Source: Candidatus Methylomirabilota bacterium
GTDB lineage: Bacteria > Methylomirabilota > Methylomirabilia > Methylomirabilales > Methylomirabilaceae
Direction of reading: 5' to 3'
Assembly (NCBI GenBank): GCA_028870115.1
Contig: JAGWQH010000042.1
Span: forward strand, 1 to 63,708
Length of the DNA stretch: 63,708 nucleotides
In this document: piece by piece, positions 39,011-63,553 of the stretch
How the letters are laid out: each line of letters opens with the position of its first letter
How positions within the stretch are numbered: the stretch's first letter is position 1
Notes under the pieces: generated by a model
What the model was told of the DNA's origin: nothing
What the model saw: the letters and a program-made list of their open reading frames with translations, nothing else
Databases searched by the model: none
Program-made: the position numbers and the translations under genes

Positions 39011-39077
39011 CCCAGTACTCTCTACACGTCCGGCGTACCGATGGGCATGAGAGCAGGTGGGGGGACCTTCTGCAATG

Positions 39078-42000: not shown

Positions 42001-42251
42001 GACCGGATCACCTCCACCCCAGGCGTTCCATTAATAGCGGACTCAATCGGGACGGTAATGAGGAATTCGACGTCCTGGGGCGGCAGGCTGGGCGCCTCGG
42101 TCTGAATGACGACCTGAGGTGGGGCAAACTCGGGGAAGACATCGACCGTGATCCGGCGTAGCGTGAATACACCCACAATCAGCAGGACCACGAAGGCGAC
42201 CACCACGAGGACGCGATTTGTCAGTGACCGTTCGATGATCCAGGCAAACAT
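39078..42251 (-). CDS. Heavy-metal-type RND efflux pump (CusA/CzcA family)
   Basis: 1057 residues. The first helix VLVVVAFVVLLIVGVFTL, then the porter domain (FPEFAPPQVVIQTEAPSLPPQDVE), TM4 region GGLAIAIGEVVDDAIVDVEN, and the duplicated second half. TM4 carries acidic residues of the proton relay, and the start matches the CusA/CzcA (HME) subfamily. The metal cannot be called from sequence; CopCD next door favours copper. It is 15 bp after the adaptor gene. Confidence 0.9.
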   Translation of the reverse strand: MFAWIIERSLTNRVLVVVAFVVLLIVGVFTLRRITVDVFPEFAPPQVVIQTEAPSLPPQDVEFLITVPIESAINGTPGVEVIRSKSTAGLSSVVVVFKWGTNIYAARQLVSERLQVVQDRLPAGTKSPVMLPITSAVGWLVKYALTSDRVSLMELRTISDWEIRNRLLAIPGVASVVSIGGEVKQYQVLLSSDKLFQYGLTVKEILDAVRKANVSMPGGFLVTPGQEYVITGAGRISSLQELQQTKVAERGGTPIRLDQVATVRFGPEFKRGDASWEGRPAVIGTVSKLFGADTLTVTYQVEQTLKEIRKTLPPGVELNTQVFRQASFIESSISNLRQAILEGVVVVSIVVIFFLFNVRASLITLTALPTSLIFGVLLLKVFGIGINAMTLGGLAIAIGEVVDDAIVDVENIIRRLRRESEKARPDPPLKVIYEASVEIRHAVVHATWIVLIVFMPIFLLGGVEGRIFTPLGFAYTFAILASLLVAVTLVPALAAMLLIRGGKAQPEQESLTVRGIKRAYEALLRRALRRPRWVMAACIVLIAASLAVAPFFGRSFLPEFREGNFILQMTMLPGVSLAESMRVGERIVGILKQHPEVISVSQRAGRAELDEEALPPNVSEFDIAIRYSARDPELLLRAIREHLEKVPGVATVLGQFISHRLDEVLSGIRAQIAIKLYGPDLAVLRAKGQQVEQIMRDINGVTDLLLEPLINVPGMRITVDREEASRLGLDVGDILETTEVAFGGRSVSRVVEGQRAFDLFVWFDETSRKDRVSMRNLLIDAPQGRKIPLRLVADLRIVNSPFMINRERLQRRIVVQANVADRDLISVIREVQDRIAREVQLPAGYFIEYGGQFESEREATRILMVYGGLAVIGIFLMLYKAFNSTRAALLVMANLPLALIGGVAAILVTGMVTSVPSLIGFISVFGIASRNGIILVSHYRRLRAEGVSKEEAIIQGSKDRLAPVLMTAAAAALGLLPLLFGEATGKELERPLAQVILGGLFTSTLLNMIVVPTLFMQFGWEREEIFRHQLALERGDPFRPGAPSSDVPTVNSERTVQ

Positions 42252-42266
42252 CTCACGCTCCGCACA

Positions 42267-44415: not shown

Positions 44416-45525
44416 TTACACCTTCATGAATTGATTACCATGGCCGACCAGACCGCGGGGTCGAATGACGACTTTGTGCTCCGGATCGCGTACCACGCGG
44501 CCGATCTGCAACGCTTCCCGGCCGTGATGTTTCACGATTTCCACAAAAGGCTCTGCATCCTCCTCAGCGACAACGACACAAAACCCGATCCCCATGTTGA
44601 AGACCTGAAACATCTCGTGATCGGGGATACCGCCTGATTGCTGAATCAGGGAAAATATCGGAGGGATCGGCGGGAGTTGGTCGATCTCATATCCGACCGC
44701 GTGAGATGCGGTGTCCAGTCGCAGGAGGTTCAGCAACCCGTCGCTCGTGATATGGGCGAGTCCTTTGATGGCCAGCGGTCGCTCTAGCGCTTCAACCACC
44801 TCCGGCACGTAGATGATAGTCGGCTCCAGCAACTCTTCCCCAAGCGTCCGCCCAAGCGCCTCGAACTTCGTGTCCACGGTATACTTGTTCTGCGCGAACA
44901 GGACCTGTCGGGCCAGCGTCAGACCATTACTATGGATCCCGCTGCTTCGAATCCCGATAATGACATCGCCGGGAGTCACCGACTTTCCAACGATTATCTT
45001 GTCGAGCGGAACATGCCCGACACACATCCCGACCAGATCGCATCCCCACCCCTCACGCTCGGACGCAAGCATCTCCCTGACCTGGGCGATCTCTCCACCG
45101 CAGATGGCCACCCCTGCGCGACGCGCCCCTTCCTTCAACCCTTGCATGAGCTGATCGATGAGGTCCGGGTTCGCGTGTTGCACCGCGATATAATCCAGAA
45201 ATGCTGTCGGGCGCGCGCCTACACAGAGCACATCGTTCACATTCATGGCCATGCAGTCGATCCCGACCGTGTCGTACTTCTGCATCATCTGCGCAACCAT
45301 GAGCTTCGTGCCTACCCCGTCGGTAGAGAGGGCCAGACCTATCCCGTGACCGATGTCGATGACGTTGGCAAAAAAGCCGATCGGCAGAACCGGCTTCCCG
45401 ACCCCTCGCACGAAGGCAAACGTCTGGCTCACCGTCTCGATCACACGGGACAGCACCTGCTCTTCCCGCTCGACATCGACGCCGGCACCACGATAGCTCG
45501 CTGCGTCCTCTGGATACTTCTGCAT
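44416..45525 (-). CDS. purM: Phosphoribosylformylglycinamidine cyclo-ligase (AIR synthetase)
   Basis: 369 residues. ATP-dependent closure of FGAM to AIR in purine synthesis. Motifs: SYRGAGVDVEREE at the start, LALSTDGVGTKLMVA, AMNVNDVLCVGARP, CGGEIAQ, and GIRSSGIHSNGLTLAR. ATG 45525 (MQKYPEDAASYRGAG) has GGGGACAGAGGAA upstream; an upstream extension is possible but unlike the family. Stands alone with its own promoter. Confidence 0.95.
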   Translation of the reverse strand: MQKYPEDAASYRGAGVDVEREEQVLSRVIETVSQTFAFVRGVGKPVLPIGFFANVIDIGHGIGLALSTDGVGTKLMVAQMMQKYDTVGIDCMAMNVNDVLCVGARPTAFLDYIAVQHANPDLIDQLMQGLKEGARRAGVAICGGEIAQVREMLASEREGWGCDLVGMCVGHVPLDKIIVGKSVTPGDVIIGIRSSGIHSNGLTLARQVLFAQNKYTVDTKFEALGRTLGEELLEPTIIYVPEVVEALERPLAIKGLAHITSDGLLNLLRLDTASHAVGYEIDQLPPIPPIFSLIQQSGGIPDHEMFQVFNMGIGFCVVVAEEDAEPFVEIVKHHGREALQIGRVVRDPEHKVVIRPRGLVGHGNQFMKV

Positions 45526-45616
45526 TTCCTCTGTCCCCTTCTGACGTCGCTGCATTAACCTCAGAATATGTCGGAACGCCGGACAGCGGCACCACGAACC
45601 GACCAAGCGTCAGCCA

Positions 45617-46438: not shown

Positions 46439-46718
46439 TTCCCGCCGCTATCACCAAAAGCAAAGCCTTCTCCGCATGGAGGCCACAGCAGGCCCGTAGT
46501 GCCGGCGGCTTAACATTATGGCGCTCGTAAGACTGCTAATGGCGGAAACGATAGCCCCCGACTCTCCACTTGCCCACCCCCTTTGAGAGAGGCGCGTATG
46601 CACCAATCCTGCATTTCTACGGTGTGGCGCGAGGTCGGCTTGCGCCTGGGAGCGCGAAGGAGTATGATCCATCGGACAAGATCTGAAACGGCTCTTCTCT
46701 TAGCCGAAGAAGGGAACG
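46439..46718. other. Intergenic region between divergent small-gene pairs
   Basis: No gene or clear terminator. It should contain the divergent promoters for the nucleotidyltransferase pair and hicBA; I cannot define them. Confidence 0.4.
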
Positions 46719-46946
46719 ATGATGCGTTACTTCAAGGTGATCGTGGAGAAACATCCGGAGGGCTATGTCGCCTATCCCATGGGGCTCAAAGGGGTAGTGA
46801 TCGGCGAAGGCGAGACCTACGAGGATGCCTTGGAGGATGTGCGATCGGCCATCCGCTTCCACATCCAGACCTTTGGACCGGAGGCGCTGGAAGCCGAGTC
46901 CCCCATCCTGGACGCCTTCATTGCGGAAGCCACAGTCACGGTCTGA
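46719..46946 (+). CDS. hicB: HicB-family antitoxin
   Basis: 75 residues: MRYFKVIVEKHPEGYVAYP, the partial RNase H-like HicB fold (GEGETYEDALEDVRSAIRFHIQ). It lacks an obvious C-terminal DNA-binding domain, as in short HicB proteins. Its stop overlaps the hicA start (TGATG). It should neutralise the toxin encoded next. Confidence 0.85.
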   Translation: MMRYFKVIVEKHPEGYVAYPMGLKGVVIGEGETYEDALEDVRSAIRFHIQTFGPEALEAESPILDAFIAEATVTV

Positions 46947-47197
46947 TGCCCAACTTTCCGGTGGAGGCCCAGAAAACAAGAGCCATCAAGCCCCTGGAGC
47001 GGCTGGGCTTCCAGGTGGTCCGAGAGGGGCCGCATCTGGCGATGGTGCGCAAGAACCCGGATGGGACGCAAACATCCCTCACCATACCTAATCACTCCGA
47101 CATCAGAGGCTCGACCCTCCGCACCATCTGCATCCAAGCGAGTATCGCCCAAGACGAATTCCTCAAGGCCTACGAAGAGACATGCGTCGGGACTTGA
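46946..47197 (+). CDS. hicA: HicA-family mRNA interferase toxin
   Basis: 83 residues. Double-stranded-RNA-binding fold: KPLERLGFQVVREGPHLAMVRKN (catalytic His in GPH), then SLTIPNHSDIRGSTLRTICIQA. These toxins cleave mRNA in translation-independent fashion. Antitoxin-first order (hicB-hicA) is the less common one. Start ATG 46946 overlaps the hicB stop. Confidence 0.85.
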   Translation: MPNFPVEAQKTRAIKPLERLGFQVVREGPHLAMVRKNPDGTQTSLTIPNHSDIRGSTLRTICIQASIAQDEFLKAYEETCVGT

Positions 47198-47594
47198 TGA
47201 ATCCGCGAATGCGCGGTGAGCTTTATAGCACCACTATTCCCGCGCCCTGACTCTCCCCGTTTCAGTCCGATGTGCCCCCGCCTATCCTGTGTAATAAACG
47301 CTCCACCGAAGTGCGTCAGGTTCTTGGCCAGAGCAAAACACATGCCCTTAACCGCACTATATCAAGGTGAAAGAAGATTCTCACGTTGGAATGATCTTTC
47401 GGCCTATTGATTCGCCTGTCTGCCAATTGTCTGAGTCGAGATCAAATTGAAGGAGAAGTCAATTCCATTGGAAACCTTAACGCAATGCTCAGCCGCGCGT
47501 AGCGCTTCGGTCTCATGAGCGAAAGTTAGGCTCAACAATTCAGAATGTCCCTTTTTCTTTTTTCAACCCAGCAGTTGGGTGGAAGCGCGCCAAA
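47198..47594. other. Non-coding gap after hicBA
   Basis: No convincing gene. A minus-strand stretch without ATG (about 47560-47410, including HETEALRAAEHCVKVSNG) may be a short remnant but is not supported further. Confidence 0.4.
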
Positions 47595-49533: not shown

Positions 49534-49635
49534 CTACTTATCCTTTTGCGCAACAACTAATCGTACCCGGTCTCGATCCACGGTCCATGGCTCCAACGAT
49601 CCCAACAGGAGCCGGTACAGTTCAGTATCGCGCAT
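49534..49635 (-). mobile_element. Possible ISL3-type transposase N-terminal fragment
   Basis: 33 codons, MRDTELYRLLLGSLEPWTVD..., matching the conserved start of ISL3-family transposases (LYxxLLGLxxPWxV). GGAGGG precedes the ATG. It stops at TAG, so only a fragment remains. Confidence 0.4.
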
Positions 49636-49671
49636 GATGACCCTCCTTGTTTGAGATTGAGGAAGGTATCT

Positions 49672-49837
49672 ATGCCAGGACATTTACTCACGACAAGACA
49701 AGCGGAAGAACCACAAGTCAACCTGGATAGGAGAATTAGCACAACTCTGACGCAATTGCTCGCGGCCGCGCGTGAGTTGGGCAACAGCGGCCACTATAAC
49801 TTGGCGATTTTAGAGAGGAAGGGATGGTGGGCAGGGG
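49672..49837 (+). pseudogene. Gene fragment interrupted at the tRNA-Phe scar
   Basis: ATG 49672 with GAGGAAGG upstream opens MPGHLLTTRQAEEPQVNLDR to AARELGNSGHYNLAILERKG. Then the frame runs into the tRNA-derived sequence at 49825. A coding region probably cut by integration; family unknown. Confidence 0.3.
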
Positions 49838-49866
49838 CGGAATCGAACCGTCGACACCAGGATTTT
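49825..49866 (-). tRNA. 3' fragment of tRNA-Phe (attachment-site scar)
   Basis: Reading the minus strand, 42 nt begin AAAATCCTGGTGTC in the anticodon loop, run through the T-arm GACGGTTCGATTCCGCC and end CCTGCCCACCA. The 5' half of the tRNA is absent. tRNA-Phe (GAA) is inferred from the AAAATCCTGGTGTC context. Confidence 0.7.
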
Positions 49867-50044
49867 GAGACCGACCAAGCCTATCTCCGCAACCTCGCGT
49901 CAACAGTGGAGTCACTGAACATTGACGCGGGGAGGGGTAGAACATACCGTAGCGACCAAGGCAGACAAAATACGCTGTTTTCGGAGACTGAACTGGCACC
50001 AAAGGTGCCGCCAGATTTGTCGACGAATGCCGCAGATACCCCGC

Positions 50045-50073
50045 TTGACACGTCATCTCCTCGGGCCTATAGT
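50045..50073 (+). promoter_or_regulatory. Promoter of the XRE-ImmA pair
   Basis: TTGACA (50045-50050), 17-bp spacer, TATAGT (50068-50073). One of the best sigma-70 matches in the window. Confidence 0.8.
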
Positions 50074-50090
50074 TATATAGGTCATATAAC
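50072..50090 (+). promoter_or_regulatory. Candidate operator for the XRE regulator
   Basis: GTTATAT-AGGTC-ATATAAC, a perfect 7-bp inverted repeat overlapping the -10 box and the expected start site. It is well placed for autorepression by the protein encoded at 50110. Confidence 0.65.
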
Positions 50091-50109
50091 AGTCACACGG
50101 GAGGAGACG

Positions 50110-50505
50110 ATGGTCACCCATCACGCCTTTGGAACATACCTTCGAGAGTGCCGTCTCAAGGCCGGGTATGGCCTCCGCAGCTTGGCTGAAGCGATCGACA
50201 TGCAGCCGTCCAACCTTAGCAATGTGGAACATGGACGAGTAGCCCCTCCGCAAGATCCCGCAGTGTTGGCGAACATTGCCGACACCCTCGGCCTCCCCGA
50301 GGGGTCTGCGGAGCGTACGCGATTGTTTGATCTCGCGGTCGCCCACAAACAGCCTGCCTTACCGCCGGATGTCGCGGCCTTTGCTTCAAAGACTCCAGGG
50401 ATTCCGGTACTGCTTCGCACGATCGAGAATAAGCGGCTCACCCGAGAGGACTTAACTAAGCTGACGGACTATATCAACCAGCGCCTCGGAAAGCCCCAAC
50501 GGTGA
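50110..50505 (+). CDS. XRE-family transcriptional regulator
   Basis: 131 residues. Helix-turn-helix FGTYLRECRLKAGYGLRSLAEAIDMQPSNLSNVEHGRVAPP in the first half, then a C-terminal tail (ENKRLTREDLTKLTDYINQRL) typical of partners of ImmA-like proteins. GGGAGGAG precedes ATG 50110. GTGA overlap with the next gene. Probably represses its own promoter. Confidence 0.9.
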   Translation: MVTHHAFGTYLRECRLKAGYGLRSLAEAIDMQPSNLSNVEHGRVAPPQDPAVLANIADTLGLPEGSAERTRLFDLAVAHKQPALPPDVAAFASKTPGIPVLLRTIENKRLTREDLTKLTDYINQRLGKPQR

Positions 50506-51146
50506 AGATCGAAGACGTTCCCGCCTACTCCATTCCCAGACTAGAACAGATTGCCAAACTCCTCTTGGAAGAACGCTGGCTTGGGCTAACAATCCCAATT
50601 GATATCGACTATATCGTGGAGCAGGAACCGGACACGATCCTTGACTACCTGCCCGGATTACGAACGGTTCACGGCGTCGCGGGCGCGGTGATCAGCCACC
50701 CCCAAGAGGCCCGCTTCACCATCCTGGTCGATAGGGAGGTTGCGGATGGCAATCTTTCTTTCTATCGCTTCACAGTCGCTGAAGAGTTTGCTCACCTCAA
50801 GCTCCATCGGAAACTGCTGGCGACGGTGACATCAGTGGAAGAGGTCATCCAGCTTCATGAATCGGAGCGATACCACGAAATTGATCGAAACGCGAAGTGG
50901 CTTGCGTCGGCGTTACTGATTCCTCCCGGGCCTGGGCTTGAGGATGCTCACCGACTGTATCCTGAGATGGTTCGCCGCGTGGGGTTTACGAACCCCGAAG
51001 CGGTCAAAGCCTACGTCGTAGATCGACTGAGCCGGAAGTATCTCGTGTCCCCTCAGGTCATGCGTATCCGATTGCAGTGTTGGCCTGTCGATGCGTTGAA
51101 GAAGATCGACACCGCCGTGAGGGAGGAGTTGGACTTCCTGGAGTGA
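50502..51146 (+). CDS. ImmA/IrrE-type metallopeptidase-fold protein with altered metal motif
   Basis: 214 residues of the COG2856 type. The usual HExxH in AHELGH reads VAEEFAHLKLH (residues ~92-102), so the first histidine is replaced by Glu while the second His and a downstream LHESERYHEIDRNA-type stretch remain. It pairs with the XRE regulator, as toxins or derepressor proteases do in TA and phage-regulatory modules. Proteolytic activity is doubtful. Confidence 0.85.
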   Translation: MKIEDVPAYSIPRLEQIAKLLLEERWLGLTIPIDIDYIVEQEPDTILDYLPGLRTVHGVAGAVISHPQEARFTILVDREVADGNLSFYRFTVAEEFAHLKLHRKLLATVTSVEEVIQLHESERYHEIDRNAKWLASALLIPPGPGLEDAHRLYPEMVRRVGFTNPEAVKAYVVDRLSRKYLVSPQVMRIRLQCWPVDALKKIDTAVREELDFLE

Positions 51147-51359
51147 GGTTGTCATAAGCCGACACAGAGGAACGGACGATACCCCCCGAACTGTGAGGCC
51201 GGTGGTAGCGGCACGATAAGGAATGAAGGAATAGGAGATCTGGAGCCAGACGGGAGGAAGGCGATCGTGTTGATCTCAAGGAGCGTGAGGAAGATATTGA
51301 ATATGGGATCTTCCGGAAATTGTGCTATTCGCTGAACTTCCCCTCCACGACCTACCGAA

Positions 51360-54065
51360 TTACCATGGCGCCGAGAGGCGATCGACGACATCCCGCCGCG
51401 CAAGCACACGCGAGCACAATTCCCAGCGGTCCTTGTCCGGGTCGATGGTTTCCTGGTATCGCATCTCGAAGACGTCGCGCGCTTGCTGCCGAAGATGGAT
51501 GTACTCGTCCATCATGGCTTCCAGATCCTCCACGTTCTCGATCCATTCGTCTTCGATCGTATCCGGCAGGCCGCCGAAGATATCGTACCGGTCCTTCATA
51601 CGGCGCGATATAACTTGATAGACCTTTTCGTCCTGGGTTTCGTGATAGACGAGGTTGAGCATATCCACGGTCCGCCGTGCCTGTCCGAGTCGTTTGATCC
51701 GGCCAAGCCGCTGCTCAAGCCGTGACGGATTCCACGGCAGATCGACGTTGATGAGCGTACCGAGGGTCTGCAGGTTCAACCCCTCACATCCGGCATCGGT
51801 GGCGACAAGAAGGCGAACCTCACGCTTCTTGACGGCAGCCTTGATGTCCTCACGCTCGACCGAGGCGAAGTCCTCACCGCGGAAGAGACCGCTCTTGCCC
51901 GCGCCCGCATAGACGCCAACGGGCTCGCCCGGCAACAATTTCGCCAGTTCTGCGCCGACACAATACACCGTGTCGTAGTACTGGCTGAAGACGATGCAGC
52001 CGTGCTCGAGCCAGGTCTTGCCCTCGGTGCGATGCTCTGTAAGGAAGTACCTGACCGCGGCGAGTTTCGGGTCGCGAGCTTCCGGACGCGACAATTCCTC
52101 GACAATCGTGCGCAGGTGTCCTGTTTCTTCAGGCGTAAGCGCACTGAGCGCCTCTTCGATCAGCTTCGTCTGTTCCTCGTCCTCAAGAACCTCGCGCCGC
52201 AGCATCTTTTTGGCCGTTGACCGGCCTGACGCGAAGCTCGAACAGATGCGTTGCAGGAGCAACGTCTTCATGAACCCGGCCGCCCTGGTACGCTTTTGTA
52301 ATGCGTCCGTGAACGCTTCCGCTGCCCGATAAGCGAGATCGAACGGGTGATTTGTCAGCAAGCCAAGGCCGCTGAATCCGACGCCCGTGTATGCAGCAGC
52401 CGGCGCATCCGGGTCGGGATGGATATCCACACCGACCTTCTCCAGCAGCCCGGCGTCCTCCAACGTCTGCCGGCGGCGCAGCACCGTATGGCGCACAATC
52501 GGGTTATGCTCGCGCAGGAATCCGTGAGCGAGGGCTTGCCCGAGTTCCTGCTTTTCCAGGAATCCCAGCGAACCGAAGCCGCGATCGGTAAAAAAAGTCT
52601 GGTCGGGAAGCCCCAATTGCAGCCGCAGCGCTGCGAACAGGGCGTCCTCGCTGGCGGGAGGCAACGGGTTACGAAGCCACTCCCAGGCGTCCTTCTCATC
52701 CGACGGCCTCTCCTCGCCCTTCACAGTGGGAAGCGCCCTCTCCCAGTCAGGCCATTTTGCAAACGGTTCGCGCCCGAGAACGAAGTCTGCGCCGGAACTC
52801 AGAATTCGCAGCAGATCCCACAACTCGCGTACCTCGGTCTGGATCGGCGTCGCCGTTCCGAGCAGTAAGTTCCTCGTACGCGCCCCGATCCGAATCATGA
52901 AGTCGAGCAAGTTGTTCGGTTCACCCTTTTTCTCTCCCAGCCCACCGCGCCGTCTTGCCTTGTGCGCCTCGTCGAGAACCACCGTCCCATACTTGCGTTC
53001 GAGCAGGTACCGGCGCTCTTCGGAATTGTGGACGATCAATCCGGTGGACACGATGGCAATACGAAATGGGCAGCGGGCGATGTCCTCCGGCCCGCGCGTC
53101 TTGATAACGTGGCCCTTCGCATCGATCCACTCTTTCTTCGTGGACAACCAGACCGCGCTCGGAATGCCGAGCTTGTCCGTCAGCTCTACCTGCCACTGCA
53201 GCGTCAGCGTCGAGGGGCAGAGGATGAGCACCGGGCCGTCGTCCAGCAAGGCGGAGATCATCGCGCTCGCGCCCAGTGAGAGCGTCTTGCCGACGCCGAC
53301 CTCATCGGCGAGCAGCAGGCGCGCCTTGCCGTAGGTCTCGCGATGCTGGAGGAACATCGTCACGAATGAGCGCTGCCACGGCTGGAGTTGTTCTCCACCC
53401 CGGTAGATCGGACTTTCGACAAGCGCGGCCGCGGGCAGTTCCTCAGTCGTCGCGTCCTCGAAGCGGATCTCCACGCGATCGGCGACGCGCTTGATCTCCT
53501 CGATGATGGCGTCGGGCAGCGGATAGGCGTCCTTCCAGAGCGCCTCAAACTCTTCTTCGACCCAGGTAACGCCTTCCGGCGAAGGGTCCTCCCAGAGGAT
53601 TTCGTAGTTCTCCGCAAAGGCGCTCCTGGTTTCATTGATCGAGCCCAGGAAACAGGTCTTCGATCCGTCGGCCGCTTCGATGACGCCGGCCTTGCCGTGG
53701 ATGAAGACACGGTCTCTCGGCACCACGCGGATCTCGACCCGACCGCTCGTCAGCAGATCATGCAACCGTCGATAGCGTTCCCGGTGCAGCAGCGCTTCGA
53801 CCTCCGACGGCGCTTCGTTCCAACGCTCCTTCAGCGCGGTCTCGCGGACGTGCTTCGAGACGGCCACATCGGCGGCGTCCAGCTCACTGTTGCAGACGAT
53901 CTGCACCTTGGGGATCGCGGCAATCTCTTCACCGACAAGCTCGAAGATCGAACTGCGGAAGTAGCCGGCGATGCGCCTGTAGGACTTCGCCTCCTTCAGC
54001 CTCACGCTGAGGAAGGAGTGGTCGAGGCGCTGGCGACGAGAGGAGAAACGGTTCAGCGCATTCAT
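51360..54065 (-). CDS. PLD-domain/SNF2-family helicase of the defence operon
   Basis: 901 residues. An N-terminal phospholipase-D-like nuclease module has HxK at H123/K125 (FIHGKAGVIE) and GSINET at 141-146, one HKD half-site. The C-terminal two-thirds is a SNF2-like ATPase: Walker A DEVGVGKT (254-261), DEAH (366-369), GTATPIQT and QRLGRIKRLGQ. It would translocate on DNA or dismantle complexes, with the PLD part possibly cutting. Last gene of a five-gene operon, joined to the preceding gene by a one-base overlap. Confidence 0.92.
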   Translation of the reverse strand: MNALNRFSSRRQRLDHSFLSVRLKEAKSYRRIAGYFRSSIFELVGEEIAAIPKVQIVCNSELDAADVAVSKHVRETALKERWNEAPSEVEALLHRERYRRLHDLLTSGRVEIRVVPRDRVFIHGKAGVIEAADGSKTCFLGSINETRSAFAENYEILWEDPSPEGVTWVEEEFEALWKDAYPLPDAIIEEIKRVADRVEIRFEDATTEELPAAALVESPIYRGGEQLQPWQRSFVTMFLQHRETYGKARLLLADEVGVGKTLSLGASAMISALLDDGPVLILCPSTLTLQWQVELTDKLGIPSAVWLSTKKEWIDAKGHVIKTRGPEDIARCPFRIAIVSTGLIVHNSEERRYLLERKYGTVVLDEAHKARRRGGLGEKKGEPNNLLDFMIRIGARTRNLLLGTATPIQTEVRELWDLLRILSSGADFVLGREPFAKWPDWERALPTVKGEERPSDEKDAWEWLRNPLPPASEDALFAALRLQLGLPDQTFFTDRGFGSLGFLEKQELGQALAHGFLREHNPIVRHTVLRRRQTLEDAGLLEKVGVDIHPDPDAPAAAYTGVGFSGLGLLTNHPFDLAYRAAEAFTDALQKRTRAAGFMKTLLLQRICSSFASGRSTAKKMLRREVLEDEEQTKLIEEALSALTPEETGHLRTIVEELSRPEARDPKLAAVRYFLTEHRTEGKTWLEHGCIVFSQYYDTVYCVGAELAKLLPGEPVGVYAGAGKSGLFRGEDFASVEREDIKAAVKKREVRLLVATDAGCEGLNLQTLGTLINVDLPWNPSRLEQRLGRIKRLGQARRTVDMLNLVYHETQDEKVYQVISRRMKDRYDIFGGLPDTIEDEWIENVEDLEAMMDEYIHLRQQARDVFEMRYQETIDPDKDRWELCSRVLARRDVVDRLSAPW

Positions 54066-55651
54066 TAACCCTTCGTCCCCTTCATAGACCGCTTCACTGT
54101 CGGTATGGACTGCTTCTTTCTAGGCTTAGCTGCCGCTGCATCGCCCGCGCCGGGAGTCCTTTGAGCCGTATGTGAGCCCTTTGGTGTGGATGAGCCCTTT
54201 GAGCCCTTTGTGAGCCCTTTCGGGTTCAGGACGTAGTGCGTACCTTTGCCAGTGCGTCCCACCTTGACGAGTACCTGCTTGCGCCTCAGTACCTCCAGGT
54301 CCCGTGTGGCTGTCGGCTTGGAGACGGAAAATGCATCCTGATACTCGGTGTTGCTTATGCGCCCGCTTCGCCGAACGAGCTGAATTACCTCCCTCTGCCG
54401 TTCATCAAGCGCCAAAGCCTCCATGACCTTCGCAGTCAGCCAATTCCGCCACAGGGTCTGTACGAACATTCCCCCGTCCTGCCGGAATTCCGGTTCTGGC
54501 AGGCCGGCCTCACGAAGAAGCGCGATCATGTCGAGCGTGCCGGTGCCGGCTTTCTCGATGTAGCGTGCGAGGAATAACGGGTCCGCTATCAAAGGATTGC
54601 GCGGGATCGAGGGGTGCGGCACGCGCAACCGCTCCATAGTCAACGGCGGCGGCAGTTCGCCTGGATTCCAGATCTCCAGCCGGTCGCTGAACAGCGAGAC
54701 CTGCACGCTGGCATTGCTGGCATAGTCGCGATGCGCCACGGCATTTACGATCGCCTCCGCCACCGCCCTTTCTGGAAGTTCGTATTCGACCGGCGCCTCC
54801 GGTCCCTGGGCGCGGGTGCCAACTGTTCGTGTGATCTTCGACATGACGAAATCTGTCGCCTGGTCCACGAGATCGAACACCGTGCCCTTGTAGATCTGGT
54901 ATGACGGGATCGGCTTGCGAATCTCAGTTCCGTGAAAGTGCATGCACTTCACCTCGGAGGTGAGTAGGAACCTTTGCGGTTGTCTGCCGAACAGCAGCAC
55001 GGCGGCGTGTGTCGGCATTCCACCATCGAGCAGATTGAGATGCGCGAGAGCCTCCTGCGGCGGGGTATTCTCCGCGAGCGCAAATTGCCGTTCGCGGCGT
55101 GCGCGGGAGAGAAACCACCGCAGCTTCTCCTCGGACAGATCGGCGAGAGTCGATCCGGGGCAGATCGAGGCATCGAACGGCCGGGTGCGCAGCGAACCTT
55201 CGCGTTCGAGGTAGTCGACGAGGCTCGCATACAGGGCCGCGGTCAGGTCTGGAATGCTGCCGAACCGGCGTCGAATCAGTTGGTCGCCGGCCTTGCGGAC
55301 CAGGGTCCGCATTTTCTTGTGGCGTACCTTGTCGTCCGTGCCTCTGACGAATATGAGCCGAGGTTTCGCGCGGAGCGTGGCGCGGTCGAACTCGCGTTCT
55401 GTGGGCGAGACACCGTCCTTGTCTTCGTGGCCGTAGTCGTTGCCGAACAAGCCGACATAGATCGCGCAGCGATCGACTTCGTCCAGATATACCTCGTCAG
55501 CCCGGCGGTCGGCGGCGGGCAGGTCCTCGAACAGGAATGCCGTGAAGTATCGTCGCAGGAGCGCGTCGCCCTCTACGAACGCCTTGACTGCACGGCGCTC
55601 CTCAGCCAGTTCCTTTTGCACGCTGCTGATAAAGATGGATGTGGTGGCCAC
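54065..55651 (-). CDS. DUF4062 + Schlafen/RecG-like ATP-binding + winged-helix protein
   Basis: 528 residues. Residues 1-~110 form a DUF4062 module (SIFISSVQKELAEERRAV, YVGLFGNDYG), a TIR-like Rossmann fold found in defence proteins. The middle has the AAA_4/HATPase_c_4 region (LPERAVAEAIVNAVAHRDY ~292-310 and EIWNPGELPPP). A winged helix follows (~415-470, GRISNTEYQDAFSVSKPTATRDLE). The tail has repeated KGS units (four GAGCCCTTT copies at 54174-54220). Role in the operon unknown: nucleic-acid sensor, regulator or effector. 16 bp after the methyltransferase. Confidence 0.88.
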   Translation of the reverse strand: MATTSIFISSVQKELAEERRAVKAFVEGDALLRRYFTAFLFEDLPAADRRADEVYLDEVDRCAIYVGLFGNDYGHEDKDGVSPTEREFDRATLRAKPRLIFVRGTDDKVRHKKMRTLVRKAGDQLIRRRFGSIPDLTAALYASLVDYLEREGSLRTRPFDASICPGSTLADLSEEKLRWFLSRARRERQFALAENTPPQEALAHLNLLDGGMPTHAAVLLFGRQPQRFLLTSEVKCMHFHGTEIRKPIPSYQIYKGTVFDLVDQATDFVMSKITRTVGTRAQGPEAPVEYELPERAVAEAIVNAVAHRDYASNASVQVSLFSDRLEIWNPGELPPPLTMERLRVPHPSIPRNPLIADPLFLARYIEKAGTGTLDMIALLREAGLPEPEFRQDGGMFVQTLWRNWLTAKVMEALALDERQREVIQLVRRSGRISNTEYQDAFSVSKPTATRDLEVLRRKQVLVKVGRTGKGTHYVLNPKGLTKGSKGSSTPKGSHTAQRTPGAGDAAAAKPRKKQSIPTVKRSMKGTKG

Positions 55652-55667
55652 GGGTCGATTCGCTTCC

Positions 55668-58600
55668 TCAGCCCAGCCGCTGGTTCTTCACCAGCTCGCG
55701 CAGCACGCGGGCGGCGCCGGCCTCTTCCGGGCGCATCGCTTCGAGCCGCCGGGCGAGGTAGTCGGCCAGATCTACCGCCAGCTCGCGCCGGGTCATGTCG
55801 CTGTAGTAGTCGGAGATGTTGAGGATGAGGTGGGCCAGCACCTCGCTGCCGTCCACGTTGTTCACCAGCTCCATCACGGCATAGAGCACGGCGCGTAGCA
55901 CCGACTGGTGCAGCTCCGAGCCTTCGCTCATCTCGGCGCGGCCGAACTCAACCGCGCTCTTGAGCCGCGCCTCATTGGCCCGCTGGCTCGCCATGAGCGG
56001 CCTGAAATCGCGCACCTTGAAGGCCTTGGCGAAGTTCTGGTAGTTGTCGAGCGTCTTCGCGCCGCGAGCTTCCATGTCGAGCATCTTGAGGTAGAAGCGC
56101 TCTACGCCGCTGAGCTTGTCCCAGTGGCCTTGAGGGATGCCCTGCGGCACCAGACACTGGTTGGCTGTGGCAACTGCAAATTCGATCAGTCCGTCAACAA
56201 AAGTGGTTTCGCCCTTCACGCGCGGGCGGATCGCCTCGGCGGTCATGTCCCGGCCATCGATCACGGCGTAGCGGGTGAGTACGCGCAGCGCCGCAGCGTA
56301 GCCGGCCATCTGGATATCGGCGTCCTCGAAGACATTCTCGTCGCGGTAGAGACCCTTCGCCTGCTGGTTAAGGCCGGTCAGCGCATCCACCTGCTTCTGG
56401 ACCTCTTCTTGGATTTCCCATGCAAGGTCGTCGCGAGTGGTCTTGTACGCGCCGTGGCGCTTGCGGCAGACGAGCAGGACGGTACCTTTGACGTAGCTGC
56501 CCTCGCGCAGCGCGCTGTCGGTCTCGGTGGCCACGTACCAGGCGGCGGTGACCTGCAGGCCTGAGGCCCAGACGATATTCGCCATATCGGCCCAGATGGA
56601 GCCGGACTGGTGGGTGAACATAATGACCTGGATGCCGTTGTCCGGCATGCATTCGGTCATCCGCTTGTAGGCCGCCACCATACCGCGCCGGAAGTTCTCA
56701 TCGTCACCCTTGATCGCGAGGGAGCGGCGGCTATCCCAGACCCAATCGGCAAACTCAGGCGGCGGGTTCTTGCGGAGCCAGGCAATGAAGAACTCGAGGA
56801 TTTCTTCATAGTTCACCGCGCTACCGTAAGGCGGGTCGGTAAGACAAATGTCCGGCGAGGCTAAAATATCGGCCGCGGGTTGGCAGACGACACTTGCAGG
56901 TCCGAGCGATACCGCTTCAGGCAGCGGGGCTCCGAACAGTTGGAGGAGCGGAAAACTTCCTCGACATCCATAATTGTAGAACGTGTTCAGAGCTTGGTTG
57001 TAAAAGACATGAGCTGGATTGTCGCTGGCACCGCCTGTACGACCCCCTTCGCCACGGGTTCCGGACCCAGCCCTGGAGGTTGTCCACTGACAAAGCTTAC
57101 TCGTGTAGTCGAGGATTCTGGAGAGCAGGACCAGTTCTTCTCCACGCTTTGACTCTCGCCTCAGCAAGCCGAGCAGCAATAAATGGCGAGCGGGAAATAG
57201 GTGATGCCAATGCGTCCACCCGCGCGTCCGAATCGGTTCATTCGTCTTATCGCCCGTCTCGATCCGCATGTCCGGTATCCAGCCCTTTTCTTGCCAATCG
57301 AAAAGCTGCTTGGCAACGAACTCCTCGACAAGAAGCTCGCGCCTGATGTCATTGTCCGAAACGGTGCGGAACTCATAGTCAAATTTCTTTCCATTCGCTC
57401 TGGGTTTCATCCAATGGACAGCGTAAAGGCGCTCCTGGAAGATATCTTCGGGGCGCGGTTTGAAATCGGTCTTTTCCCAAAGACGCAGCTTATTGCCTGT
57501 GACGCCATCGGCATTGCGATAGTCGCCGCGTAGCGTGGAAATTTTAGTCCGATACTCGACACCGTTCACGCTGTGAATGAGATACGGGTCCTGACCGCGG
57601 CCGTCGGAACGCACCGTGCCCTTCGATGCGGCCTTCAAATCATCGTCTGAAACGCCCGACCGGACGCGAATGTCGTAGCGTTTTTGAGAAGCAACCGGAA
57701 CCAGCTCGGCGATCGCTTGTTTGCCGTAGCTAAGCACACGCGATGGTATTAAGGGCACCATCCAGCCGGATTGCGGGCAGCGAACCTCGACACAGTACAG
57801 GTAAGCTTTCGCACGCCACCCATGCCCATCGGTTTCAACGCCCAGCTTATCGATTTCTCCAAGCACCTTGTCCACAAGCTCTTGCTGGCGACGCTCAAGC
57901 TGGGCACGCTCATCTGCTGAGCCGCCGATGATCCGGAACGCGCCCCAGGTCAGCATGCAGGCTACCGGGTTGAGGTCGGAGGCGTAGACGTCGCAGCCGA
58001 GCCGCGCCGCCTCAAAGGGACTCTGACCGGACCCGCAGAAGGTATCGGCAACGCGCGGCCGGTGACCATAACGCATGATCCCAAGCTGCTCGACCAGCTC
58101 CGGGAACGATCGACCGCTCGTGCCCAGGTGCGCATTGACCGCATCCCAGATGTGCTCATGGACAATGTTCGCGACCTCCTCGGGGCGTTTGGCCGCTTCC
58201 ACTCGTTCGCGGTACCGTGCAAGCGGGAGCATTTGCGCTTCCAGGCGGCGGCGCTCCAACTCGGACATATCATCGCGCCAATGAACCCTGACATCCTCCA
58301 ATTCCGGCTTGGACCAGTCCACAGGCGCCGACTGGGGTATGGGCGTAGGGGGATCGAAGACGAAGTAATCGGTGATCCGGGTGATGCTCAGGGTGGCGAG
58401 GATCTCCTTGGGCTTTGGGCGGCTGGGCCAGCGGGCGACGAACGATTCGTCGTCCATCGCCATCAGCTTCTCGAAGATCTCCAGATCGCGCGTCGGGTCG
58501 TTGGTAGCCGGAAGGAGGCAGCCGAGGATGCAGGCTTTGTTCAGAATGAGCGGCTTGCGTCCCTTCCAATACGCGCCAAGCGGCACCAGTGTTTGACCTG

Positions 58601-58712
58601 CGCCCGCTTTGCGCTCCTTGAACACCTCGGCGGAGAGCTTCTGCACCGGCAGCAGACGCTCGATGAGCGCGGGCTCATCCTTCAGCGCGAACGGTATTAC
58701 GCCGGCACTCAC
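55668..58712 (-). CDS. DUF1156 (COG1743) DNA methyltransferase
   Basis: 1014 residues. N-terminal DUF1156 (~1-70), SAM-binding motif VADTFCGSGQSPFEAA (FxGxG at 225-229), a large intervening region with possible Zn-ribbon cysteines, and the catalytic DPPYG at 626-630, typical of adenine-N6 or cytosine-N4 methyltransferases. It presumably marks host DNA so the helicase/ATPase partners spare it. Start codon overlaps the DUF3780 stop (4 bases). The target sequence cannot be read. Confidence 0.95.
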   Translation of the reverse strand: MSAGVIPFALKDEPALIERLLPVQKLSAEVFKERKAGAGQTLVPLGAYWKGRKPLILNKACILGCLLPATNDPTRDLEIFEKLMAMDDESFVARWPSRPKPKEILATLSITRITDYFVFDPPTPIPQSAPVDWSKPELEDVRVHWRDDMSELERRRLEAQMLPLARYRERVEAAKRPEEVANIVHEHIWDAVNAHLGTSGRSFPELVEQLGIMRYGHRPRVADTFCGSGQSPFEAARLGCDVYASDLNPVACMLTWGAFRIIGGSADERAQLERRQQELVDKVLGEIDKLGVETDGHGWRAKAYLYCVEVRCPQSGWMVPLIPSRVLSYGKQAIAELVPVASQKRYDIRVRSGVSDDDLKAASKGTVRSDGRGQDPYLIHSVNGVEYRTKISTLRGDYRNADGVTGNKLRLWEKTDFKPRPEDIFQERLYAVHWMKPRANGKKFDYEFRTVSDNDIRRELLVEEFVAKQLFDWQEKGWIPDMRIETGDKTNEPIRTRGWTHWHHLFPARHLLLLGLLRRESKRGEELVLLSRILDYTSKLCQWTTSRAGSGTRGEGGRTGGASDNPAHVFYNQALNTFYNYGCRGSFPLLQLFGAPLPEAVSLGPASVVCQPAADILASPDICLTDPPYGSAVNYEEILEFFIAWLRKNPPPEFADWVWDSRRSLAIKGDDENFRRGMVAAYKRMTECMPDNGIQVIMFTHQSGSIWADMANIVWASGLQVTAAWYVATETDSALREGSYVKGTVLLVCRKRHGAYKTTRDDLAWEIQEEVQKQVDALTGLNQQAKGLYRDENVFEDADIQMAGYAAALRVLTRYAVIDGRDMTAEAIRPRVKGETTFVDGLIEFAVATANQCLVPQGIPQGHWDKLSGVERFYLKMLDMEARGAKTLDNYQNFAKAFKVRDFRPLMASQRANEARLKSAVEFGRAEMSEGSELHQSVLRAVLYAVMELVNNVDGSEVLAHLILNISDYYSDMTRRELAVDLADYLARRLEAMRPEEAGAARVLRELVKNQRLG

Positions 58713-59284
58713 GCCGAATCCTCGAACAGCGGCAACTTGAACAGATCCTGCTCGATGGGTCGCGGCCGTCGCTTGCGGGACGCGGGCTTCTCGCCATCCG
58801 AAAGCGCGAGAAAGAGCGCACGCCGCCAGCCGCGCTGGGTGTCATTCGGCAAGCCGGCCTCGGCGACTGTCACGGAGAAGAGCCACCAGCGCTCTTCGGG
58901 GCGCAGCGCCGCCCACTTGCTGCAAATGATCGGAAGCTGCTCTTCGTTGGCGGGCTCGGCCGCCCACGCCAATACGCACAGCTCTTTGCCGAGAAGCCGG
59001 TCCACCAGGTTGGTGCCGGTATGCCAGCGGCCGGTCAGGATCTTCGCCGCCTTGAGCCGGTCATTGAATTCACGGCGGGCGATGTGGGCGATGGCCGACC
59101 ACACCGGACGCGCGATAATGGCGCGTTCCTCCTCCCGCGGGATGCCGCCCTGCTGACCGCGGTAGCCGTAGTCCTCGACGATCACGACCGGCTCATGTCG
59201 TGAGGCAAGAATCTCGACGCGGAAGAGATGCGCGCCGTACGCATCGGGCGCGCCGAAGTCGATCGTCTTGGGCCGCTCAATCAC
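58709..59284 (-). CDS. DUF3780 protein of the defence operon
   Basis: 191 residues: EDYGYRGQQGGIPREEERAI, an RREFNDRLKAAKILTGRWHTG helix, the ELCVLAWAAEPA strand and GWRRALFLALSDGEKPA. It matches the DUF3780 family that accompanies DUF499/DUF1156 genes. Overlaps both neighbours by 4 bases, so stoichiometric co-translation is likely. No catalytic motif is obvious; probably a structural subunit. Confidence 0.85.
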   Translation of the reverse strand: MIERPKTIDFGAPDAYGAHLFRVEILASRHEPVVIVEDYGYRGQQGGIPREEERAIIARPVWSAIAHIARREFNDRLKAAKILTGRWHTGTNLVDRLLGKELCVLAWAAEPANEEQLPIICSKWAALRPEERWWLFSVTVAEAGLPNDTQRGWRRALFLALSDGEKPASRKRRPRPIEQDLFKLPLFEDSA

Positions 59285-62200
59285 TGCTCGACATCCCCTT
59301 GCTGCAGCTCAAGACCGAGCTTCCCGGCAAAGTCCTTCAGATCATGGCCCGATGCAAAGTGGGCCTTGCGAAAGGTCATGGTGATCGGCGTGTCCGGCGT
59401 GAACTTCTCCAGCACCTTGACGAGCAGCGCTTCGACGAATGCGGCGTCCACGGCAATGTCGCCAATGTTGACGCCGATCATCTGGTTGCCCTGACCCACC
59501 GTGAGCACAATACCCTCGAAGGTGGCCGATTTCTCGGCGGCCTGCTTCAGCCCCTCGAAGGTCTTGCTGCGCGAGTCGAGCTTGCGGCCGGTGCGCGAGA
59601 TGAGGCGTCCGGGCTTTACGTCGTCGATCTGCATCCCCTTCTTGCCCTTGGCCGGGAAGCGGAATTCGTTCTTGGCCTCGATCCCGTCTGCCTCCGCGAA
59701 GGCACGCAGTATCACCTCGGCGTCACCGATTGCGATCGGCCCATCATACGCGATCCCCTCGCGCGGTTCGCTGCCGTCCAGCGTGTAGCGGATCGACCCT
59801 TTCGGGGCGACGAACAGCTCGACCCTGCGCTTGCCGCCTTTCTCCGAAAGCTGATTGCGAAGGGTGAGCTTGTTGGACCAGGTCACCGGATCGCCGGTCT
59901 CGTACTGCCCCGATACGTCGTGCACAAGGAAGCTGACCCGCAGAGCGTTCGTGACGTAAGGGTTGTCCTTCAGTTGCGCGCTCGACTCGGAGACCGGCGC
60001 TTCCTCGGCGTAATAGATGCGAGGCGCGGGACCGGCATTCTGCGGATTGATGCGCAGCCGCACCTTGCCTTCATCGCCGGGCTCGGGCTCAGCAATCACC
60101 TGGACGAAGGTACGCTTCTTCTTTGGCTTCTTCGTCACGTAGCCGTTGCCGAGGTCCTCCCACAGTCCGCGGTTGCAGGCGATCGATTTCAGCGTGTCGA
60201 GGCCTTTGGGCGGCAGCCACACCATGCCGGCCTGCTCAGCATAGCGGTCTGCCACATCGGACCAGCGCGCGTCGTCCTGGTTCTCGGGCCACAGCAGGTC
60301 CTGCGCCTTGTCGCGGATGGCGTCGAACTCCTTTTCCACGTCGAGGTAGAGCTTCAGCGGGTTGGATGTCAGCGTCTTCTCGATCTGCTCCTCACCGTTG
60401 AATTGTTTAGTGGCATCGCGGGTCATATCCAGAGGTTTGGAGGCAAGCTGGGCCGGCTTATCTGCGCGCTGGATGGGAAACAGGACCTTGTCGAACAGAT
60501 TGAGGATGGTGGCGTTGAAATCCTGCTCATAGGTCTGCTGCTTACTCTCCAGATCATCCCGTTGCGGATGGCCCTTGGGGATGCGACCATCGGCCTTCTG
60601 CGCCGCGAAGAGTTGGCGGGCGGCCTTTTCTACGCTGCCCATGGCGGTCTTGTCGCCGGTGAGCACGCACAAGTTGTTCTTCTGGCTGAGGCCCTCAAAG
60701 AACTTCTGCACTTCTTCCGGTGGGATTTTTGAATCCGGGCTCACGACGAGCAGCACACGTCCCCTGCGCACGCGATCGGCGACCTCTTCCAGCCTGGGTA
60801 GGGGCAGCACGTCTTCGTAGCCGGTCTTGCGCACCGGTTTGAACATGTCGCGAAGGCGGTGTCTGATCAGGTCATCGACCTGGTTTTCGGGTGCGTCATG
60901 GGCGAGGCTTTGCAAGAGCTTGGTGAGGTTTTCCTGCCGATCGAAGTAGTAGCGACCTTCCGGCGTATGATGCACGTACCAGGCGACCTTTTCCAGCTCC
61001 TCAAAAGCGGCAAGGAACTCCGACGGTTCGCGCAGGGGTGAGATAAGACACTCGACCATCTCCTCGCGGGTGAGGCCCTTCACCGCGTTGACGGCGGTGG
61101 ATAGACTTGCGGTGAGCAGCAGCGCGCCGACCTGCGTTGCCGCCTCCTTGCCGGTTTGCAGATCGATGATCTGGGCGTGTGCGGATTGCTGTGCGTCCCA
61201 GAGATCCTTGGCAATGACATCGCGCATGCCGGATATCTCGGTCAGCTTATCGCGCACCTCCGGCACCGACAGGTCGAAGTGCTGCGGGCCGATGAGGAAG
61301 ACATCGTTGGCCTGTCGGTCCCACACCGACCTGAGCAGGCGCGACACGAGTTCGATCAGGCCGCGGGTCTGTTTGAATTGCTCGTTCTCCTTGAAGAGCG
61401 CGATGACATTCTTGAGCCGCGGGTGGAAGGGATACGTCGCAGCGATCTCGTCGGCGATCGCCTCGGCGCCGCGGTTGGCGGTCTTCGACTTGGCGGCCTC
61501 TTCCAGCTTGCGGCCGAAGGCTTCGGCAATGTCGCCGATCTCGGCTTTGTCGGGAAGCGACTTGAAGAGGCGCTTGCGCAGGATGTCGTAAATCTCGTTG
61601 GCGGCAAGGTCAACCGGCGTGATGTTGCGCTCCTGACGGCCAAGCTCCGAGCGCGCATCTTCCAGTGCCCGGTTGATGAGCTTGGCGCCGGTGTCATAGG
61701 CGGCGGCGAGGTCGGACACCACGACGCACACGTTCTTCTTCTTGCCGGCCGCCGTCAGCAGATTGGCGAACGCCCGGGTAGCGATGTCGGCGACGGTGCC
61801 GTTTCCGACCTTCTGCGTGTCGAGATAATGGAAGTAGGGCGGCATTTCGTCGAGCAGGATCAGGACAGGCGTATCGCCTTCGAAGAGCTTGAGCCAGTCC
61901 TTCTCGTCCGGCGCCTTGGGACCGCCGGTCCAGAAAGCCCTGAACTGCTCACCCTTGCCGAGCTGATTGGCGATCTCGCCCCAGAAGAAGTGGTCGGGAT
62001 TGTTGCGGCCGTTGAAGGCGGCGATGTTGGCGCTCTGAAACGCTGAGGCGTAGAGCGTCCCTCCGCAGTACTGCTTGCGAAGCTGGGGATGCTTGGCGAG
62101 CAGGCCGAAACCAACGAGCAGGTGAGTCTTGCCGCCGCCCATTGCCTGCTTGAGGTGAAAAACCGCCTGCGTCGAAGCGCCGGCCAGTCGCGCGGTGCCC

Positions 62201-62364
62201 TCACTGATCAGGTCCTGCATACCTTGGGTGATGTGCGTCTTCTCGAAGAAGGCCGCGCCACCCCCCTCGGCGGTGATCAGCTCATCGAGTTGCTCAACCT
62301 GGTCGCTGAGCTTGATGGACAGGGCATTTGGCTGTATCTGGCAGGCATCGCGGACGGTCTTCAT
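59281..62364 (-). CDS. DUF499 (COG1483) AAA+ ATPase, PglY/BrxC-like
   Basis: 1027 residues, first gene of the operon. Walker A QAMGGGKTH (73-81), Walker B with LLDEMPPYFHYL (171-181), and a sensor-like VSDLAAAYDTG. The C-terminal part has a CHB_HEX-type beta domain (IRYTLDGSEPREGIAYDG, ~855-880). DUF499 ATPases are related to the large ATPases of BREX and Pgl systems. ATG 62364 has GGAGG 10 bases upstream; an extension to 62406 lacks support. Confidence 0.93.
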   Translation of the reverse strand: MKTVRDACQIQPNALSIKLSDQVEQLDELITAEGGGAAFFEKTHITQGMQDLISEGTARLAGASTQAVFHLKQAMGGGKTHLLVGFGLLAKHPQLRKQYCGGTLYASAFQSANIAAFNGRNNPDHFFWGEIANQLGKGEQFRAFWTGGPKAPDEKDWLKLFEGDTPVLILLDEMPPYFHYLDTQKVGNGTVADIATRAFANLLTAAGKKKNVCVVVSDLAAAYDTGAKLINRALEDARSELGRQERNITPVDLAANEIYDILRKRLFKSLPDKAEIGDIAEAFGRKLEEAAKSKTANRGAEAIADEIAATYPFHPRLKNVIALFKENEQFKQTRGLIELVSRLLRSVWDRQANDVFLIGPQHFDLSVPEVRDKLTEISGMRDVIAKDLWDAQQSAHAQIIDLQTGKEAATQVGALLLTASLSTAVNAVKGLTREEMVECLISPLREPSEFLAAFEELEKVAWYVHHTPEGRYYFDRQENLTKLLQSLAHDAPENQVDDLIRHRLRDMFKPVRKTGYEDVLPLPRLEEVADRVRRGRVLLVVSPDSKIPPEEVQKFFEGLSQKNNLCVLTGDKTAMGSVEKAARQLFAAQKADGRIPKGHPQRDDLESKQQTYEQDFNATILNLFDKVLFPIQRADKPAQLASKPLDMTRDATKQFNGEEQIEKTLTSNPLKLYLDVEKEFDAIRDKAQDLLWPENQDDARWSDVADRYAEQAGMVWLPPKGLDTLKSIACNRGLWEDLGNGYVTKKPKKKRTFVQVIAEPEPGDEGKVRLRINPQNAGPAPRIYYAEEAPVSESSAQLKDNPYVTNALRVSFLVHDVSGQYETGDPVTWSNKLTLRNQLSEKGGKRRVELFVAPKGSIRYTLDGSEPREGIAYDGPIAIGDAEVILRAFAEADGIEAKNEFRFPAKGKKGMQIDDVKPGRLISRTGRKLDSRSKTFEGLKQAAEKSATFEGIVLTVGQGNQMIGVNIGDIAVDAAFVEALLVKVLEKFTPDTPITMTFRKAHFASGHDLKDFAGKLGLELQQGDVEQ

Positions 62365-62383
62365 GGGGTGATTGCCTCCTTCG

Positions 62384-62524
62384 CTAAGCCGCAAGCACCA
62401 GCCCAACGTCGTCCGGCAGGTCGGCAGTAAGTGTGTCGGTCACGGGGTCCATGCGCCGGTTAGTATGGACAGTGTCGGCGCAAGCGATCTGGCCCTCGAT
62501 GCCGGGGTCTTCCTCTATCGCCAT
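62384..62524 (-). pseudogene. 46-codon ORF, likely start of an IS21 istA remnant
   Basis: MAIEEDPGIEGQIACADTVHTNRRMD... ending at TAG just before the DUF499 ribosome site. Its first residues and the preceding DNA resemble the beginning of IS21-family istA genes. The protein is then unrelated and short, so probably a remnant, though a small operon gene cannot be excluded. Confidence 0.35.
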
Positions 62525-62585
62525 CAGACCCCATTAATCCCATAAGTGCCCAATATCTTTAACACAAAACCGCCACAGCAGCGAG

Positions 62586-62653: not shown

Positions 62654-63553
62654 CTACTTCTGTTGTAACTTCATGGCCAACTCGAATTCCCCGTCATAGG
62701 GTAAGTTTAGATGGGAGACCATTTCGGGAATGGCTAACTTCCAGCTCACGTAGTAGAAGGCCAATATGTGATAACCCGAGAATATCTTTTCGGGGATAGC
62801 ATTGACTTTGTAGCCCTCTTTGTCCGGACTGAACCCCTGTGTTCCCAACAATGCGATCTCATGTGCGATTTCTTTGATTCTCTCTTTTGGCATATACCTG
62901 AAGTAGTTCAACGCATCAACCATGAACATGACCACCGCCATGTTAGTCCCGGTTTCTGTCTGAGATTTCTGGAACCTTTCTTCATCCCTCCGCTTGTCGA
63001 TATCCCTTGACTCAACGCCGTGAGGGCCTTCTTCTATCGAAGTCAACAGCTTGTCGATATCCGTTCTCTCGCCACGGTATTCCTTTTCATCAATCAACTC
63101 AAAACATTCGTCGAGACCAAGGCGTTCTGCCCAATCAAGAACCATTTCGTATTCCTGGCCGGGCTTGCGGCTATCCTTATGCTGCAGGAAGTCACTGTAG
63201 AAAGCCTTCGCGTTCGATAGCTCTGACGACGTTGCGTGAAACTCCTGAACAACGGGAACCCCATAGAGGTCCTTGAACTGCATGGCACTGACAATATTGA
63301 AGATCTTGCTACTCCACAATATATTTGGCGGCGCATGTTCAACGATTTCCTTGTTTGTTACCGCATGCAAACCTTGCTTCAGCAAACCAAACAGGGAGAT
63401 GAATTGGTATGGCCGGAGTTCCTCGAATTCATGGTAAAGAAAGTCCTCTATGAAAAGGTCTATGGGGGCATTGAAGATCTGCAGATTGATTCCATCAAAA
63501 AGAGTCGTACAGAAACCTGAGATGGATTCTTCAGGGACCCCCTTTTTGCGCAA
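62654..63553 (-). CDS. Unknown accessory protein, possibly 5'-truncated
   Basis: 299 residues from TTG 63553. The same frame stays open upstream to a TAG at about 63628 and looks coding (VHDATVKIQDYSLRKL), but has no usual start codon, so the true N-terminus may be lost. C-terminal region MFMVDALNYFRYMPKERIKEIAHEIALLGTQGF and KIFSGYHILAFYYVSWKLAIP looks like a helical domain I cannot name. Lower GC than its neighbours suggests separate transfer. Same strand as, and 130 bp before, the DUF499 leader. Confidence 0.6.
   Translation of the reverse strand: MRKKGVPEESISGFCTTLFDGINLQIFNAPIDLFIEDFLYHEFEELRPYQFISLFGLLKQGLHAVTNKEIVEHAPPNILWSSKIFNIVSAMQFKDLYGVPVVQEFHATSSELSNAKAFYSDFLQHKDSRKPGQEYEMVLDWAERLGLDECFELIDEKEYRGERTDIDKLLTSIEEGPHGVESRDIDKRRDEERFQKSQTETGTNMAVVMFMVDALNYFRYMPKERIKEIAHEIALLGTQGFSPDKEGYKVNAIPEKIFSGYHILAFYYVSWKLAIPEMVSHLNLPYDGEFELAMKLQQK

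Follow-up and report, generated by a model that had tools for sequence, protein, structure and literature searches.

Tyrosine integrases that use tRNA genes as targets cut the gene in two and rebuild it from a copy of their own, and the displaced piece ends up at the opposite end of the island, as described in the Islander survey (PMC4383910). Among the main sites of crossover is the anticodon loop: the collection counts 2083 anticodon-centred islands, and it further lists 3760 islands with 3' fragments and 125 tandem arrays, each of at least two islands (PMC4383910). A second described system that bears on the present locus is the Type-2 BR class of defence operons. Its authors infer a mode of action resembling restriction-modification, in which the methyltransferase would mark self DNA, the ATPase would scan and the HKD-helicase would cut unmarked DNA (PMC12839542). 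DUF4062 is not mentioned in the main text of that paper.

The stretch of DNA analysed here (the window, 63,708 nucleotides) is contig C42 of a Candidatus Methylomirabilota assembly, which consists of 122 contigs with 3.9% estimated contamination. It contains 42 bases of a tRNA-Phe gene (AAAATCCTGGTGTCGACGGTTCGATTCCGCCCCTGCCCACCA, the minus strand at 49866..49825), which are very probably the scar of a tyrosine-recombinase insertion into the anticodon loop of tRNA-Phe; a defence island lies on the right and, less certainly, an older insertion on the left. A genome search and direct comparison showed that all 42 bases are identical to both tRNA-Phe(GAA) genes on a separate contig, C75. The scar comprises the 3' part of tRNA-Phe, beginning with the AAAA of the anticodon loop and running through to CCA. 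The match ends within that loop, where the next three bases are CTC in place of the CTG of tRNA-Phe. One base of the presumed 7-bp crossover therefore differs from the tRNA, which counts against the main reading.

No 5' half of tRNA-Phe was found at the scar. ARAGORN detected no tRNA in the window, and an Rfam scan of 49600-50100 returned a chance 13-base match to a T arm and no tRNA or other RNA. For all 28 other tRNA genes compared (42 tRNA genes were found in the genome), the longest match to the window was at most 13 bases, which excludes a chance match. The 42-base identity confirms both the position and the content given in the original prediction, namely that only the part of tRNA-Phe from the anticodon loop to CCA is present. 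The scar overlaps no Pfam-supported gene among those scanned, the ORFs flanking it end at 48963 and 49458, and the XRE gene begins at 50110, 244 bp to the right, with the operon next. The scar was thus correctly described as lying just before the XRE-ImmA pair and the defence operon. The features of both contigs are listed in Table 1.

Table 1. Features of the window and of contig C75 that make up the tRNA-Phe locus; positions refer to the window unless preceded by C75.
Feature	Position	Strand	Evidence or remark
purM, native gene downstream of tRNA-Phe in the genus	44416..45606	-	NCBIfam TIGR00878, 353 bits; synteny
611-bp block with HicA-domain ORF (46583-47197 +)	46633..47243	.	87-90% to the tRNA-Phe/purM interval of G005, G011 and G014
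~105-bp block, read as left end of an older inserted element	49720..49824	-	likeness to DNA after intact tRNA-Phe
Displaced 3' fragment of tRNA-Phe, attR-like scar	49825..49866	-	42 bp exact match
XRE-type HTH regulator (HTH_31)	50110..50505	+	Pfam
ImmA/IrrE-like metallopeptidase (Peptidase_M78)	50502..51146	+	Pfam
HKD/PLD nuclease-helicase	51360..54065	-	Pfam PLDc_2 (22-177) and SNF2/Helicase_C; PADLOC PLD_Helicase 1506 bits
DUF4062 + HATPase_c_4 (RecG C-terminal-like) + HTH protein	54065..55651	-	Pfam; optional operon member
DUF1156 DNA methyltransferase	55668..58712	-	Pfam; PADLOC DUF1156_MTase 1462 bits
DUF3780 protein, standalone gene	58709..59284	-	Pfam; PADLOC
DUF499 ATPase with Fn3-associated C-terminal domain	59281..62406	-	Pfam; PADLOC DUF499 1649 bits
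299 aa ORF	62654..63553	-	no family match
Left end of IS110-type element, contig break	63568..63708	+	repeated at 5 other contig ends
tRNA-Phe, first full copy	C75:11584-11659		intact gene
tRNA-Phe, second full copy	C75:12541-12616		957 bp from first copy
Opposite end of IS110-type element	C75:14196-14336		last 141 bases of C75, repeated at four other contig ends

The chromosomal context was compared in 15 genomes of the genus, which is presumably Methylomirabilis, nitrite-dependent methane oxidisers. Read on the tRNA strand, the order is pyrF, rarA, hbd, tRNA-Phe, a variable stretch of 0.2-5 kb, and purM. The gap between tRNA-Phe and purM is below 0.2 kb in G001 and 2-5 kb in G005, G006, G011, G013 and G014; in G010, the intact tRNA-Phe and purM are on different contigs, purM coming after a 3' fragment of tRNA-Phe. 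C75 carries the pyrF-rarA-hbd side of this locus, and purM, located 4.2 kb past the scar in the window, anchors the chromosomal side. The synteny from hbd and tRNA-Phe to purM therefore places the defence region, to the right of the scar, between tRNA-Phe and purM, as an island in tRNA-Phe requires. A second tRNA-Phe fragment was sought beside purM in the window and not found, the best ungapped match elsewhere being 24/49. The neighbourhood of purM also contains, at 37565-43535, genes for a CopC/CopD-domain protein, an RND pump and its membrane-fusion protein, which likely form a metal-handling cluster.

As in displaced tDNA of the anticodon class, the scar is a 3' end fragment that starts in the anticodon loop and includes CCA, and an intact gene is present in the same genome. 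Synteny places it downstream of tRNA-Phe, in the same orientation and with variable DNA between the two, on a presumed physical join of the contigs. The intact tRNA-Phe with a matching 42-bp block, proposed as a check in the original prediction, was located on C75 in the expected orientation.

C75 and the window contig are separate in the assembly, which weakens the main reading, and would be joined by a copy of an element of IS110 type, at whose ends 11 or more contigs break. The ends on C75 and the window have compatible orientations, and one copy could bridge them as the synteny demands. Homologues of both ends are found in G001 and G010 on one strand, about 1.18 kb apart, and the protein of the G010 copy, recognised by its sequence and not by an HMM, is presumably an IS110-type transposase. 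No contig in the match lists has both IS110-type ends. If one IS110 copy joins C75 and C42, the island from the second tRNA-Phe to the scar would measure about 1.7 + 0.9 + 13.8 = 16.5 kb; Islander uses intervals of 2-200 kb between tDNA and fragment. On C75, a TPR gene is located beyond the second tRNA-Phe and before the IS110 end, and a HigB/HigA-like toxin-antitoxin pair sits between the two full tRNA-Phe genes (L041, 11584-12616). A DNA homologue of this pair (86%) is found on contig C1 of G011, apart from the tRNA-Phe of that genome. The 5' end of the second tRNA-Phe reads GGGCCGG instead of GGGCAGG, with a C-U mismatch in the acceptor stem, and this second full copy is at odds with a simple single insertion, a further point against the main reading.

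A relative, G009, shows the insertion process at tRNA-Phe as a complete case. On its contig C34, tRNA-Phe at 30.7 kb is followed by a 432-aa tyrosine integrase (PF00589) pointing at the tRNA gene, and a scar of 45 identical bases is present at 40.1 kb. The whole phage-like element of about 9.3-9.4 kb lies on one contig (L056, 4757-14155), and its genes give phage-type matches, including helicase/primase and head-protease families. This 9.3-kb element and the window island are alike in target gene and scar boundary. Unlike the window island, the G009 element contains a tyrosine integrase and primase/helicase-like and head-protease-like genes, and no defence operon was seen in it. The tRNA-Phe fragment of G010 comprises 49 identical bases. 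The G009 and G010 fragments are independent of that in the window, and all three run from the anticodon loop or stem to CCA. In the literature, no tRNA-Phe island was found for Nitrospira.

The proposal of a tyrosine-integrase insertion at the anticodon loop is supported by the 42-bp match, the synteny, the integrase-bearing element of G009 and the island class described by Islander (PMC4383910). The accompanying expectation of an integrase beside tRNA-Phe or the scar was not borne out: PF00589 is present on neither C42 nor C75, the contigs that hold the island's ends, and the five PF00589 integrases of the genome are on C104, C119, C66, C50 and C64. A missing integrase had been named in advance as a possible refutation. 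A search of this genome with the G009 integrase returned only a 36% relative, on C66 near tRNA-Glu. Relatives of that integrase in other genomes have no tRNA-Phe-like sequence in the short flanks compared. Loss of the integrase from the island, further DNA in the interval besides the single IS110 copy, or movement of the unit in trans would account for the missing gene. An integrase is presumed as the agent, as is the order of the insertions. The locus resembles the anticodon-class islands of Islander in its intact tDNA, its 3' fragment in the same orientation, the foreign cargo between them and the anticodon-loop crossover. It differs from them in that an integrase was not found in the assembled parts, the interval is unclosed in the assembly and an apparent second left end follows the fragment. 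Since C42 and C75 carry no integrase, the island is not classed as a putatively active Islander-type island.

By its gene content, the cargo is a predicted defence operon of the Type-2 BR kind, i.e. DUF499-centred and BREX-related, with a DUF499 ATPase, a standalone DUF3780 gene, a DNA methyltransferase and a helicase with an N-terminal HKD (PLD) nuclease. The Type-2 BR systems of PMC12839542 have in common with it the DUF499 ATPase with Fn3-type domains, DUF3780, the methyltransferase and the HKD nuclease-helicase, whereas the window operon differs by an additional DUF4062-ATPase-HTH gene, placed between those for the methyltransferase and the helicase. This DUF4062 gene is present in 8 of 80 related loci. 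For the window DNA from 51,356 to 62,632, a Methylomirabilis MAG (L161) has a counterpart of 91% identity, located at another site that lacks tRNA-Phe sequence, and a betaproteobacterial MAG (L114) has one of 80-86% identity. The operon has therefore moved horizontally, and the transfer was probably recent and between phyla. In L161, a reverse transcriptase (RVT_1) gene is found upstream of the BR operon, at 2051-3157.

Several other explanations of the scar and its surroundings have to be considered. It is highly improbable that the scar is a decayed duplicate of tRNA-Phe, produced by tandem duplication and loss of the 5' half with no integration. Duplication does occur here, as the two full tRNA-Phe copies on C75 demonstrate, but the 3' half is intact and its border falls at the anticodon loop or stem, a position shared with the G009 and G010 fragments, and in G009 the integrase lies directly beside tRNA-Phe. 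Random erosion would not have ended at almost identical points in three cases. The DNA to the left of the scar bears on the number of insertions. Similarity to the DNA directly 3' of intact tRNA-Phe in G002, G010 and G011, and of the second C75 copy, continues for about 105 bp past the CCA of the scar (80-85% over 133-138 bp when the tRNA part is counted). As native flank these ~105 bp are disfavoured, because they are absent in G001 and at the G010 scar, where the native flank and purM come directly after the tRNA sequence. Present after intact tRNA-Phe elsewhere and missing at these two sites, the block is therefore most readily explained as an element's left end, and on this basis an older insertion is placed between the scar and purM. 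The same observations argue against a single island whose outer edge is the scar, followed by 4 kb of native DNA up to purM. This explanation is unlikely, although the 611-bp block within the 4 kb is common to the same interval of G005, G011 and G014, and part of the 4 kb is therefore old in the genus. The window scar is probably the inner junction of two stacked insertions rather than the outer edge of one island, and the locus is best read as an older, decayed insertion of ~4 kb left of the scar and the defence island right of it. Of the original description as the scar of an integrated island, the insertion scar is retained, and the outer edge is replaced by the more likely junction. Tandem tDNA arrays in Islander likewise have more than one insertion per tRNA gene and tRNA sequence between the units. 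In contrast to those arrays, the units of the window and C75 are without an integrase of their own, and one separator, the second C75 copy, is a full-length tRNA gene.

The operon may also have a history separate from that of the island. It is conceivable, if somewhat doubtful, that it entered a pre-existing tRNA-Phe island by transposition or homologous recombination, and that the scar marks this host island. The block in common with L161 is limited to the stretch between 51,356 and about 62.6 kb and includes neither the XRE-ImmA genes nor the scar, and an IS110 copy is located just beyond the operon block. Against a separate entry, a tRNA gene was found by ARAGORN in 10 of the 59 related loci scanned, and its 3' end faces the operon in nine of these ten; at least nine of ten has a chance of about 0.01 by orientation alone in a rough test, the loci being not fully independent. 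A locus in a Hydrocarboniphaga MAG (L142, 5434-18154) is an independent BR island at tRNA-Phe, in which the operon lies between the tRNA gene and a 23-bp repeat of tRNA 3'-end sequence. Remnants of an integrase are preserved there as a frame-broken gene by tRNA-Phe, split over two frames with matches to PF12834 and PF12835; the island also contains a DarTG-like pair. When repeats of the tRNA end were sought with a 12-base seed in the tRNA-bearing DUF3780 loci, L142 alone yielded a credible one. The nine loci with this orientation and L142 therefore make arrival inside tRNA-borne islands plausible as a rule. There is also a slim chance that tRNA-Phe of the genus is an accretion site for integrase-less cargo that shares the ~105-bp block as an attachment arm and is moved in trans, for example by the G009 integrase. 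That the defence operon, and the higBA-like pair between the two full tRNA copies, would be such cargo units is a similarly remote prospect.

For the favoured reading of stacked insertions, the following course of events can be proposed. An element would integrate in tRNA-Phe when a tyrosine recombinase exchanged strands within the anticodon loop. The 3' half brought in by the element would restore tRNA-Phe, and the original 3' half would be displaced to the far end of the element, where it would constitute the scar. From the tRNA side, the resulting locus would consist of the intact tRNA-Phe, the higBA-like pair, the second full tRNA-Phe, the TPR gene and the IS110 copy at the contig break, continued by the operon of DUF499, DUF3780, DUF1156, DUF4062 and HKD-helicase genes, ImmA, XRE and the scar. 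After the scar would come the older, decayed insertion of ~4 kb, starting with a similar left end, and then purM. The scar would be inert at present and could still act as an attachment site, given a matching integrase in trans.

The scar is a fresh example of a well-known kind of insertion scar, and it locates one boundary of a defence-carrying island with single-base precision. Specialists would be drawn to three aspects: the stacked insertions, the missing integrase and the mobility of the Type-2 BR operon. With this locus, Type-2 BR operons carried by tRNA-borne islands gain a clear example, in which the operon has moved horizontally, probably between phyla, and the comparison shows the tRNA-Phe/purM interval as a hotspot in this genus.
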